From positions 1 through 42,800 of the forward strand of contig JACOYH010000006.1 in the NCBI GenBank assembly GCA_016181965.1: a DNA stretch of 42,800 nt. The letters are read 5' to 3'. Below are positions 7,181 to 26,964 of the stretch, in pieces; position 1 is the first letter of the stretch, and every line of letters begins with the position of its first letter. The stretch comes from Candidatus Nealsoniibacteriota bacterium. Its GTDB lineage: Bacteria; Patescibacteriota; Minisyncoccia; Minisyncoccales; MHMH01. The notes beneath the pieces are model-generated. The model saw nothing but the letters and a program-made list of their open reading frames with translations, ran no database searches and was not told where the DNA came from. The translations under genes and the position numbers were made by a program.

Positions 7181-7233
7181 GTTGGTTGAAGCCAGGCTCT
7201 AACCGACTCGGTTAGAGCCTGGCTTCAACCAAC
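7181..7233. repeat. Family A palindrome, copy 1 (26-bp arms)
   Basis: Perfect inverted repeat: arms 7181-7206 and 7208-7233 around a single C. The outer 23 bases of each arm are shared with the palindrome at 26399-26450; only the centre differs (GACTC here, AAGCTT there). It lies between the divergent KGG and DHH genes. It has no useful U-tract on the minus side, so it is not a simple terminator. Confidence 0.95.
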
Positions 7234-9963: not shown

Positions 9964-10995
9964 ATGAACAGGAAAAAGAAGGCATTAGGATTTGAAATCA
10001 ATCCAACGGATTCTGTTGTTTATTCTTCCTTCAATCCATCAATAAAGAAATGGAACAGCTTAACCGCAAGACGCTGTGAAGACAAGAATTTTTGGCCGTC
10101 TCCATTTTCATCCGGCCTAAATTACGGCCTCGCTGTTTTTGAAGGAATGAAAGCATTCCGCCACAAAGACGGAAAAATTTACATATTCAGGCCGCATCAT
10201 CACGCCAGAAGATTCATCGGGTCGCTGAAGGGCCTCTCAATGCCGCCGTTTCCAACGGAAAAATTCACAGAAGCGGTGAAGCGGCTGGTTTATATAAATG
10301 CGAAATTCGTTCCCGAATACCGCCAAGGCAGTTTATACATCCGCCCCATCGCTTGGGGGGACAAAAACCTGGGCTTTGGCCACAACCCTAACCTTGCCTA
10401 TACCGCGGCTTTCCAGTGCTCGCCCGTGGGTCTGTATTATACTGGCGATCTGAAAAGCATTGCCGTCTATATCATGAGAGAAATGACCAGGGCAATGCCC
10501 GGAGGATTAGGTTACTGCAAGGTTGCGGGAAATTACGAAATTTCCAGGATGGCCAAAGTCATCGCCGACAAACACGGATGCGGCGATGCACTATTTCTTG
10601 ACGGAAAAACCAAAACACATATCGAAGAATTTGGAGCGGCGAATGTTTTTGTGGTAAAAAATGATGCTCTCTATACTCCTCCCCCAAGCGATACCATTCT
10701 GTCGGGCATCACTCGCAAAAGCATAATCACATTGGCTAAGTCGGTTCTGCGCCTCAAGATTTATGAGCAAGACATTCGCGTTAAAGACGTTACAAAAATG
10801 GCTGATGAGGTTTTTGCCTGTGGAACCGCTGTCGCAATCACTCCCGTCGGACAAATAAGGGACGGTAAAACCATTTATACAATCGGCGATGGCCAGACGG
10901 GGCAAATCACTAAAAAACTATACGATCTTTTAACCGGCGTTCAGTACGGCGACATTAAGGATAAGTTCGGCTGGATGGAAGAAGTAGAAAAATGA
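9964..10995 (+). CDS. ilvE: Branched-chain amino acid aminotransferase
   Basis: 343 residues, class IV PLP aminotransferase in full length. It swaps the amino group between Leu/Ile/Val and 2-oxoglutarate. The PLP-binding Lys is K186 in GYCKVAGNY. The downstream EEFGAANVFV and ILSGITRKSI motifs fit the BCAT family, and the sequence is of the longer, mitochondrial-like BCAT2 type (FWPSPFSSGLNYGLAVFEGMKAF). It is a single-gene unit with no other branched-chain biosynthesis genes nearby, so it may serve catabolism or scavenging in an amino-acid-poor organism. The gene ends 5 bases before the converging tRNA-Gln. The start is the first ATG, with TAAACT and a short leader ahead of it. Confidence 0.92.
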   Translation: MNRKKKALGFEINPTDSVVYSSFNPSIKKWNSLTARRCEDKNFWPSPFSSGLNYGLAVFEGMKAFRHKDGKIYIFRPHHHARRFIGSLKGLSMPPFPTEKFTEAVKRLVYINAKFVPEYRQGSLYIRPIAWGDKNLGFGHNPNLAYTAAFQCSPVGLYYTGDLKSIAVYIMREMTRAMPGGLGYCKVAGNYEISRMAKVIADKHGCGDALFLDGKTKTHIEEFGAANVFVVKNDALYTPPPSDTILSGITRKSIITLAKSVLRLKIYEQDIRVKDVTKMADEVFACGTAVAITPVGQIRDGKTIYTIGDGQTGQITKKLYDLLTGVQYGDIKDKFGWMEEVEK

Positions 10996-10999
10996 ATGG

Positions 11000-11070
11000 C
11001 TGCGGGGCTAGGATTCGAACCTAGATAACGACATTCAGAGTGTCGGGTCCTACCATTAGACGACCCCGCA
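11000..11070 (-). tRNA. tRNA-Gln(CUG)
   Basis: Acceptor TGCGGGG (11064-11070) pairs with CCCCGCA (11001-11007). The anticodon loop CTCTGAA gives CUG, and the T-arm contains GGTTCGAATCC. The CCA end is not encoded. The 5' 14 bases are duplicated about 270 bp upstream, with a hairpin inserted (see 11333-11385). Confidence 0.93.
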
Positions 11071-11325
11071 ATGATTAATTATTTTTTTATTAAATAATTT
11101 CTTTAAAAATCTTCTCCCATTAGTTGATTTAAGAAATTTCTCTCTTTCTCTCGCTTTTTCAAAATCGTCAAACTCTTCAATATGTATAACCTCCCAAGGT
11201 TTATATCTTCTTGTATAAAAATGTTTTCCGAAGTTATGTTCTTTCAATCTCCTATGAATATCATTTGTCAAGCCAACATAACTTTTCTTAACGATACTAC
11301 TTTTTAGAACATACACGATATACAT
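11056..11325 (-). CDS. Single-domain GIY-YIG endonuclease-like protein
   Basis: 89 residues. Family motifs: MYIVYVLKS (the GIY half), KSYVGLTND (YIG half), R in HRRLKEHN, and Glu in KAREREKFLKS. Single-domain GIY-YIG proteins of this size are common in Patescibacteria and related to UvrC or homing endonuclease catalytic domains; their targets are mostly unknown. The ORF runs 15 bases into tRNA-Gln and takes its TAA stop from tRNA positions 13-15. A broken copy of the same tRNA 5' end sits just upstream of the start, so the gene lies between tRNA-Gln and its partial duplicate, as if it had arrived with an insertion at the tRNA. Confidence 0.85.
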   Translation of the reverse strand: MYIVYVLKSSIVKKSYVGLTNDIHRRLKEHNFGKHFYTRRYKPWEVIHIEEFDDFEKAREREKFLKSTNGRRFLKKLFNKKIINHCGVV

Positions 11326-11332
11326 ATATGTA

Positions 11333-11385
11333 TAGACGACCCGCCTCGACGAGCCCGCTCGTCGGGCGAGGCGGGCCCCGCAATG
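11333..11385 (-). pseudogene. Duplicated tRNA-Gln 5' fragment split by a hairpin
   Basis: The minus strand carries CAT plus TGCGGGG (11376-11385), then a 36-bp insert, then TCGTCTA (11333-11339). Without the insert this is exactly the first 14 bases of tRNA-Gln plus three upstream bases. The rest of the tRNA is absent. Confidence 0.85.
11340..11375. repeat. 36-bp GC-rich palindrome inside the tRNA-Gln fragment
   Basis: Outer arms 11340-11347 / 11368-11375 (CCCGCCTC / GAGGCGGG) and inner arms GACGAGC / GCTCGTC around CC, with a 4-base bulge. It fills precisely the gap between tRNA positions 7 and 8 of the duplicate. Confidence 0.85.
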
Positions 11386-11386
11386 G

Positions 11387-12298
11387 TTACGCTTTCAGAT
11401 ATTTACGAATGGCGATCCAGCTGGAAATAACTCCCAAGCCGACTCCGGCAACCAGCTGAATCAATAATATCAGTAAAATGTTGCCGATAAAGTAACTAAA
11501 TATATTAAACCCTGGAATTAAAATTGCAAGATGCGGGCCAAGGAAATACAGGCCAATGCCGAATATCAGCATAGTAACGGCGACAGCAAAAAGCCCGGCC
11601 AATATGCCCTGAAACAGAAATGGGCCGCGAATAAACCAATTAGCCGCTCCCACCAGCCGCATTGTCTCTATTTCCTCCCGGGCATTGTAGATTGCCAGCC
11701 GCACGGTGTTAAAAGCGACTAAAATTGCCACCAATGCAAAACCAATGCTAAAAACAATGCCGGCCATGTTAATGCTGTCGGTGAGAGAAAATATTTTATC
11801 TATGGCAGATTTTTTCTGCTGATAGTCAACTTTGGCCACCAAGTCGTTGAACGGAGAATCTGTTATAAAACTGGAGATAGCGGCATACTGCGTGGCCTCC
11901 CACGCCTTGATATTCAAAGAGGCCAGCAAGGGGTTTCTGCCCAACTCTTCCAAAGAGTCCATAATGGCTTCGTCTTCCTTGTGACGTTCGGTGAATTTAT
12001 CTAAGGCCTCTTCTCTGGAAACATAAAGAACTTCTTTGACTTCCGGCATTTTTGAAAGCTCGTCTTTTACTATCAAAATGTCGTCGCTTGAAAGCTCTTG
12101 CTTGAAATAAATGTACATATCAACTTTTTCTTTCAAACTGGCAACCAAAAATTGAGAGGTCTTCTGCGCGAGGAACATGGATGTTGCCAGGGAAATGGTC
12201 AAAACCATAATAAAAATCGTGGCAAAGGAAAGCCCTCCCTGCCTGCGGAATCCCTTCCAGCCCGATTTTGCGATTCTTTTTAGTGAAATTAAAAACAT
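11387..12298 (-). CDS. ftsX: Cell-division ABC transporter permease FtsX
   Basis: About 303 residues from the ATG near 12298 (a TTG 15 bases upstream is less likely). An N-terminal membrane segment (FATIFIMVLTISLATSMFLA) is followed by an extracytoplasmic domain of about 110 residues (VDMYIYFKQELSSDDILIVKDELSKMPEVKEV) and three C-terminal membrane segments, the standard FtsX/type VII topology. With FtsE it links ATP hydrolysis in the cytoplasm to peptidoglycan hydrolase activation at the septum. It follows ftsE with the reading frames nearly touching. It is the last gene of the prfB-ftsE-ftsX run and ends near the tRNA-Gln fragment. Confidence 0.92.
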   Translation of the reverse strand: MFLISLKRIAKSGWKGFRRQGGLSFATIFIMVLTISLATSMFLAQKTSQFLVASLKEKVDMYIYFKQELSSDDILIVKDELSKMPEVKEVLYVSREEALDKFTERHKEDEAIMDSLEELGRNPLLASLNIKAWEATQYAAISSFITDSPFNDLVAKVDYQQKKSAIDKIFSLTDSINMAGIVFSIGFALVAILVAFNTVRLAIYNAREEIETMRLVGAANWFIRGPFLFQGILAGLFAVAVTMLIFGIGLYFLGPHLAILIPGFNIFSYFIGNILLILLIQLVAGVGLGVISSWIAIRKYLKA

Positions 12299-12302
12299 AT
12301 TT

Positions 12303-12992
12303 TTATAAAGCAAATTTCCCCCGCTCTTCGTCCCTGATAATTCTGCCCTGCTCCAAGGTTACCACCCTTTTTTTGAGCGTATTAATAATATCTTTGTTAT
12401 GAGTAGCCAGAAGGACGGTCGTGCCCATTTGGTTGATTGTATCTAATAATTTAATTATCTCTTTTGTGTGGAAAGGGTCAAGGTTGCCTGTCGGCTCATC
12501 GGCTAAAATAATGTCGGGGCGATGAATCAGGGCCCGGGCAATGGCCGCCCTCTGCCTTTCGCCGCCCGAAAGCTCTTCCGGAAAATTATTAGCTCTTTCG
12601 GCCAGACCGGTAATTTCCAAAACCTTAGTTACGTCTTTGTTGATTTCTCTTTCGGTCGCTCCCATCACTTCCATAATATAGGCCACATTTTCGTGAACAG
12701 TTTTTGTGCCGAGAAGTTTATAATCCTGAAAGACCGCGCCAATTCTTCTGCGGAAGTAGGGTAATTGTTCTGATTTGATTTTGTGAACGTCTTGCCCTTC
12801 GTAAAAAATTTGGCCGGAGGTCGGTTTTTCTTCCGCCAGAAAAAGCTTAAAAAGGGTTGTTTTGCCAGCCCCTGATCTTCCCACGATTGAAACAAACTCT
12901 CCCTGATTTATTTCAAAAGAAACATCTTCGAGAGCTGAAATTGGAGATATCCCCGATTTATATACCTTAGTTATATTTTGGAAAGAAATCAT
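12303..12992 (-). CDS. ftsE: Cell-division ATP-binding protein FtsE
   Basis: 229 residues. Walker A GRSGAGKT (about 38-45), Q-loop FQDYKLL, ABC signature LSGGERQR, Walker B IILADEPTGNLD, and H-loop LATHNKD. The opening MISFQNITKVYKSG is typical of FtsE. It forms the cytoplasmic ATPase of the FtsEX complex. Its ATG overlaps the prfB TAA by one base, and it precedes ftsX, so the three genes are translationally coupled. The order prfB-ftsE-ftsX is the common one in Gram-positive bacteria. Confidence 0.95.
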   Translation of the reverse strand: MISFQNITKVYKSGISPISALEDVSFEINQGEFVSIVGRSGAGKTTLFKLFLAEEKPTSGQIFYEGQDVHKIKSEQLPYFRRRIGAVFQDYKLLGTKTVHENVAYIMEVMGATEREINKDVTKVLEITGLAERANNFPEELSGGERQRAAIARALIHRPDIILADEPTGNLDPFHTKEIIKLLDTINQMGTTVLLATHNKDIINTLKKRVVTLEQGRIIRDEERGKFAL

Positions 12993-26383: not shown

Positions 26384-26402
26384 TCTCGCCGTCTAGAGTT
26401 GG
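26384..26402. repeat. 19-bp direct repeat, left end of the small-gene cassette
   Basis: Matches 26972-26990 at 18 of 19 positions (shared core CGTCTAGAGTTGG). Together they bracket a 607-bp segment. Confidence 0.85.
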
Positions 26403-26450
26403 TTGAAGCCAGGCTCTAACCAAGCTTGGTTAGAGCCTGGCTTCAACCAA
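26399..26450. repeat. Family A palindrome, copy 2 (26-bp arms)
   Basis: Perfect 52-bp palindrome with no spacer, arms 26399-26424 and 26425-26450. It shares 23 bases per arm with 7181-7233. It sits at the left end of the cassette. Confidence 0.95.
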
Positions 26451-26917: not shown

Positions 26918-26964
26918 TGCCGAGGACTGTCCTCGCCAGATTCTGGCGAGGACAGTCCTCGGCA
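26918..26964. repeat. Family B palindrome, copy 2 (23-bp arms)
   Basis: Arms 26918-26940 and 26942-26964 around one T. Differences from 18751-18799 fall in matched pairs (CTCGCC/GGCGAG here, CTTGCC/GGCAAG there), so pairing is kept. Confidence 0.95.

Follow-up and report, generated by a model that had tools for sequence, protein, structure and literature searches.

A GIY-YIG nuclease gene between an intact tRNA-Gln and its hairpin-broken leftover in a patescibacterial genome: a probable invader of tRNA genes

The closest known kinds of element to the locus described here are SegB of phage T4 and the mobile ORFs (mORFs) of fungal mitochondria. SegB, present in the phages T4 and T6, is described in the accessible parts of two reports as a free-standing GIY-YIG homing endonuclease of the tRNA region (PMC13096335, PMC2988022). 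According to the excerpts of the first, RAWTSGAAC is the motif at which the T6 enzyme cleaves within tRNA genes, and the enzyme depends on recombination functions (PMC13096335), so that the cutting of tRNA genes by this type of nuclease is established elsewhere; by our reading of its letters, the motif would match the T-loop. The mORFs are reported, in the portion of the source available, from atp6 of Allomyces and from atp6, atp9, cox2 and nad3 of Glomus (PMC3630166). The rRNA genes of CPR bacteria hold GIY-YIG and LAGLIDADG insertions (PMC11270868), and mitochondrial repetitive hairpin-forming elements are short hairpins that enter intergenic DNA and RNA genes (PMC2800124). In the open-access literature we found no description of tRNA-linked GIY-YIG elements in CPR bacteria.

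The window, which is the whole stretch of 42,800 nucleotides analysed here, comes from a Candidatus Nealsoniibacteriota genome of 603 kb (G000), a draft in 15 contigs. Along its minus strand the order is ftsX, CATTGCGGGG, a 36-bp hairpin, TCGTCTA, a GIY-YIG ORF, tRNA-Gln(CTG) and the end of a gene that we take, from unaided reading of the sequence, to be branched-chain aminotransferase-like and that stops 1 nt from the 3' end of the tRNA (Table 1). Joined, the minus-strand pieces 11385-11376 and 11339-11333 read CATTGCGGGG plus TCGTCTA and are identical at 17 of 17 positions to 11073-11057, in agreement with the original prediction that CAT and the first 14 bases of tRNA-Gln recur at 11333-11385. 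This split match was found nowhere else in the window and in none of 50 shuffled windows, and a gapped alignment of the leftover outscored 200 of 200 shuffles. The same prediction had placed an exact 36-bp palindrome between tRNA positions 7 and 8. A 36-nt insert is indeed present, but the palindrome is imperfect: the outer stem has 9-10 bp and the inner one an asymmetric bulge, and because of runs of G the placement of the insert slides within tRNA nt 4-8. The GIY-YIG gene lies, as was claimed, between the true tRNA and the broken copy; in addition, the ORF runs into tRNA-Gln, where tRNA nt 13-15 form its stop codon. A chance match or an assembly chimera, for which one could cite the draft state of the genome, is next to impossible in view of these shuffles and of the independent recurrences across many genomes reported below.

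Table 1. Features of the ftsX/tRNA-Gln locus, in coordinates of the window
Feature	Position	Strand	Basis
Intact tRNA-Gln(CTG), 5' end probably rebuilt by the insertion	10997..11070	-	ARAGORN; Rfam RF00005
GIY-YIG single-domain nuclease ORF, 89 aa	11056..11325	-	PF01541 E=6e-17
Leftover of the original tRNA-Gln, nt 8-14	11333..11339	-	split-match comparison
36-bp GC-rich hairpin within the leftover, outer stem CCCGCCTCG/CGAGGCGGG	11340..11375	.	
Leftover of the original tRNA-Gln, nt 1-7, with 5' flank CAT, attached to the ftsX side	11376..11385	-	
ftsX, left flank, directly followed by tRNA-Gln(CTG) in most relatives (empty site)	11387..12313	-	
Branched-chain aminotransferase-like gene (presumed), right flank	9964..10995	+	

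We read this locus as a tRNA gene that was probably invaded by a free-standing GIY-YIG homing endonuclease gene (HEG) travelling with a replacement tRNA, and assign this reading a probability of about 0.8. The order as a whole has conserved the ftsX/tRNA-Gln(CTG) neighbourhood, and we read 70 such sites, the window included. No endonuclease gene is present at 59 of them, and the tRNA mostly lies less than 60 nt from ftsX; relatives in which tRNA-Gln(CTG) directly follows ftsX, with neither a GIY-YIG gene nor a fragment, supply the empty sites for which a search had been proposed. A GIY-YIG ORF stands between ftsX and the tRNA at seven sites (the window, G004, G055, G119, G135, G047 with a 7-nt stub, and G039, which is degraded), a LAGLIDADG gene (Pfam LAGLIDADG_3) at three (G008, G002 and G021), and at one site tRNA-Gln is absent. 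The LAGLIDADG insertions (L159, L162 and L249) have a 22-nt tRNA-Gln stub, free of hairpins, and a complete tRNA, which in G008 and G002 is clearly unlike the stub. Two unrelated nuclease families have thus invaded this site on repeated occasions and left the same architecture. The occupations in relatives are independent, each with its own fragment, and together with the empty sites they support the initial proposal of an insertion at the tRNA gene that rebuilt the tRNA end. Scars occur at a few sites free of a HEG, as a 13-nt stub in G127 and a hairpin-broken stub in G067. The nearest congener, G001, gave no ftsX match and is hence uninformative on the site. In G089 (L165) ftsX is followed by a tRNA-Gln stub and then by a complete tRNA-Gln within inverted repeats (CCCCGT..TACTA/TAGTACGGGG), and this tRNA resembles a mobile cassette without an endonuclease.

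Since leftover and rebuilt end are identical in the window, the window alone cannot demonstrate that a tRNA was replaced. At other loci some leftovers are unlike the intact tRNA, which indicates that a replacement was brought in. At L016 the stub attached to ftsX is of tRNA-Gln(CTG), whereas the complete tRNA after GIY-YIG is tRNA-Gln(TTG), and at L216 a near-complete native tRNA-Ser, its T loop broken by hairpins, precedes GIY-YIG and an intact second tRNA-Ser with a different acceptor stem. L223 has GIY-YIG and a complete tRNA-Gln between the halves of the native tRNA-Gln, bounded by CCCGCCAAATT/AATTTGGCGGG, and at L010 both native tRNA-Lys halves are kept around the insert. Replacement of a gene end in the manner of the mORFs is seen at L016, L010, L159, L162, L216 and L223.

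The window's genome has three GIY-YIG ORFs, each of which adjoins a tRNA. With a profile built from 16 family members we screened 147 genomes of the order and inspected the neighbourhood of 143 GIY-YIG ORFs, of which 82 have a tRNA at most 350 nt away. Within this distance 89 of 90 tRNAs share the strand of the ORF and one is opposite (binomial p ~1e-25, which is only a guide, as related loci are not independent). A 5' leftover of the same tRNA lies upstream in 27 of the 41 ORFs with a tRNA directly downstream, a leftover being accepted if matched by at most 2 of 200 shuffles, which preserved base composition only; L087 was excluded, its apparent leftover being a genuine upstream tRNA-Ile. In a mirror class, the tRNA 3' end is significantly matched past the ORF in 9 of 42 cases with an upstream tRNA; the majority of these nine matches are clear stubs, and in some the stop codon of the ORF falls in a hairpin loop. 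Twelve surveyed ORFs end inside the tRNA as in the window. Leftovers vary in length between 9 nt and almost a complete tRNA, with stubs ending most commonly, by eye, at about nt 24-27 or in the anticodon loop, and the targets span 16 amino-acid types, including Lys, Gln, Ser, Asn, Met, Pro, Ile, Cys, Leu and Ala. The same strand rule holds in 30 loci across the phylum, and hairpin-broken stubs were also found at L189, L194, L201, L211 and L216. The repetition of this arrangement at many tRNA genes of related bacteria suggests that selfish genes have an undescribed route into essential tRNA genes.

Since mobile elements classically integrate at tRNA genes and the ORF of the window stands between identical core repeats, one could also think of a small integrative element or satellite moved by a tyrosine recombinase in trans, with the 17-nt repeat as att core. 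We regard this as very unlikely, for there is room for just one 89-aa ORF between the copies, the leftovers vary in length and the targets in amino-acid type to the extent just given, and LAGLIDADG genes yield the same architecture at the same site.

The other 61 of the 143 ORFs have no tRNA within 350 nt; three are near tmRNA and one is at the start of a protein gene. A search of 40 loci for conserved RNA genes beside such tRNA-less ORFs found just the 3 tmRNAs. At L068, L074 and L082 the ORF lies immediately upstream of tmRNA, and long GC-rich hairpins occur at the tmRNA 5' end. Direct repeats flanking tRNA-less ORFs were mostly absent, with one clear case, L057, in which the first 41 nt of the protein gene are duplicated on both sides of the ORF at its start. 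Note that the GIY-YIG ORFs at L125, L131 and L147 have TATCCTTCG...CGAAGGATA-like ends and a 13-14-nt duplication of the tRNA 3' end that resembles a target-site duplication.

The proteins belong to the GIY-YIG superfamily, as evidenced by Y5, Y16, G18, R26, H30 and E62, which are invariant in 16 relatives. The surveyed ORFs encode bare nuclease domains of about 80-110 aa without a separate DNA-binding domain, and their site specificity is therefore only putative. In a tree from a short alignment they cluster by target tRNA (43 changes versus a mean of 54.6 and a minimum of 48 in 200 shuffles) and by side (12 changes versus a shuffled mean of 28 and minimum of 22), and host family gives 104 changes versus 112.7 shuffled; judged by these counts, the protein phylogeny appears to follow the target more than the host. 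The ORF of the window lies outside any intron or intein and adjoins an intact tRNA, and relatives hold empty alleles of the conserved target (59 of 70 sites), as befits a free-standing HEG. A group I intron with HEG was rejected, the functional tRNA being uninterrupted and Rfam reporting no intron family, and so was a tyrosine-recombinase island, the sole ORF between the copies being the GIY-YIG protein and not an integrase.

Hairpins were counted by a strict scan (stem of at least 6, loop of 3-9) and by a second scan that allows long loops; L033 and L095 were put into the hairpin set by eye and are not significant by shuffling alone. The strict scan gave 23 hairpins in 2349 bp of 29 stub regions, or 9.8 per kb, versus 0.70 per kb in the remaining intergenic DNA at these loci, an enrichment of about 14-fold. 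In the long-loop scan 22 of the 29 stubs had hairpins versus 14 of 104 stretches of equal length preceding other tRNAs (Fisher p ~3e-10) and 7 of 60 preceding GIY-YIG genes that lack a neighbouring tRNA (Fisher p ~3e-9), and with both scans combined a hairpin is present in 25 of the 29 leftovers. The 3' leftovers likewise bear hairpins. Yet the stub sequence is little altered (40 mismatches over 822 aligned nt, some twelve stubs being perfect), so that hairpins either enter faster than neutral decay predicts or are selected. Were they ordinary dispersed palindromes that settle on any unconstrained DNA, close relatives of the 36-mer should occur elsewhere, and they do, in coding and intergenic DNA of other genomes; both the enrichment and the near-constant presence of hairpins in leftovers with so few mismatches speak against this explanation, which we consider unlikely without dismissing it.

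The proposed genome search for the 36-mer found its family in a single copy in the window's genome. Searched by its exact stem pattern, the window type (CCCGCCTCG...CGAGGCGGG) is present in 10 of 230 genomes, one copy each, and lies clearly in GIY-YIG/tRNA modules of G000, G052 and G073, with the others in coding or intergenic DNA. A dispersed repeat of the REP or RHE kind was rejected on this single-copy occurrence of the exact pattern, and the view that the hairpin belongs exclusively to the element was rejected because the 36-mer has close relatives in coding and intergenic DNA of other genomes. At L152, L153 and L156 hairpins of the same 36-bp type sit apparently in frame within protein-coding genes. 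The window itself also holds two long perfect copies of one palindrome family (GGTTGAAGCCAGGCTCTAACC; 7181-7233 and 26399-26450) and near-identical perfect palindromes of a second (TGCCGAGGACTGTCCT...; 18751-18799 and 26918-26964), the copy at 18751-18799 being just upstream of RNase P RNA (18862-19184).

Related hairpins occupy the same tRNA-Gln position in L016, L058 and L095, loci from three families, so that some stubs were inherited or transferred with their hairpin, and L010 has the same hairpins in both copies of a duplicated stretch, where they must be older than at least one duplication. The sequence of events first put forward, insertion and then hairpin, fits many other cases, but we infer this order, and entry of the hairpin could be coupled to the insertion. 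Alternatively, the hairpins could act in the 5'-UTR to control translation of the endonuclease, as in T4 segB and mobE, with the tRNA leftover incidental. Hairpin-regulated homing endonucleases including segB are described in the part of the literature available (PMC2988022), and the leader in the window is strongly folded (z=-3.3). We find this improbable, since such hairpins are rare (7 of 60) at GIY-YIG genes without a tRNA neighbour, end by eye some 14-32 nt upstream of the start codon and thus beyond the usual ribosome-binding site, and occur in 3' leftovers as well.

In the homing reading that we prefer, the nuclease would cut an empty tRNA gene, one broken end would be repaired through homology to the complete tRNA beside the HEG in the donor, and the other would be joined beyond the HEG. 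The product would be a HEG preceded by a 5' leftover and followed by the complete tRNA or, in mirror image, a HEG preceded by the complete tRNA and followed by a 3' leftover, always in a single orientation, and such a one-sided repair route would account for both mirror classes and for the strand rule. GC-rich hairpins would later enter the leftover, at a frequency far above that in the rest of the intergenic DNA. The anatomy of the loci, their empty counterparts, the recurrence, the rule on strands, the excess of hairpins and the grouping of proteins by target tRNA are direct observations, and cleavage, the repair route and the reason for the hairpins are what we infer here; for the latter, persistence of alleles with a broken direct repeat, protection of the stub against recutting, control of expression (as in T4 segB/mobE) and local fragility are the candidates. 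Tentatively, and with somewhat less than even confidence, we suggest that interruption of the direct repeat or half-site may let alleles persist, because the HEG would not be looped out precisely and the stub would not be recut. A phylum-wide set of tRNA-gene invaders, whose bare and possibly structure-recognising GIY-YIG domains swap the tRNA and are locked in by target-disabling hairpins as a working part, is a rather doubtful extension. Against the homing reading stand the intact tRNA, which still holds a target made of tRNA only and leaves self-protection unexplained, the 61 of 143 ORFs without a nearby tRNA, and the three hairpin-free LAGLIDADG leftovers.

Because tRNA genes are essential and highly conserved, a selfish invader that is not lethal has a target in every genome. 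If true, the homing reading would account for the small GIY-YIG genes common in Patescibacteria and beside tRNAs, and would provide a route for horizontal tRNA gene replacement and natural series in which sites are empty, occupied or scarred. A testable question raised by the hairpin-sealed stubs is what makes one short fragment so prone to hairpin insertion.

The insertions in CPR rRNA genes belong to the same host group, and the GIY-YIG ones likewise lie outside introns (PMC11270868); unlike those studied here they interrupt the rRNA, and that paper does not mention tRNA. Mitochondrial hairpin elements form multi-copy families within a genome (PMC2800124), whereas the exact family seen here is single-copy per genome. 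As far as the accessible parts of the SegB reports go, the resemblance lies in a GIY-YIG gene among tRNA genes without an intron and in action through homologous recombination; SegB is, however, a phage gene at one locus, and here short single-domain ORFs stand at many tRNAs of bacterial chromosomes. Those parts note neither a tRNA leftover nor a replacement tRNA (PMC13096335, PMC2988022). With the mORFs, judged from the portion available, the locus shares a HEG (GIY-YIG or LAGLIDADG) that comes with a foreign gene end and leaves the native end as a remnant beyond it (PMC3630166). The mORFs, in contrast, affect mitochondrial protein genes, at the 3' end in the cases covered there, whereas the elements described here are bacterial, invade mostly tRNA genes, at either end, and have hairpins in their leftovers.
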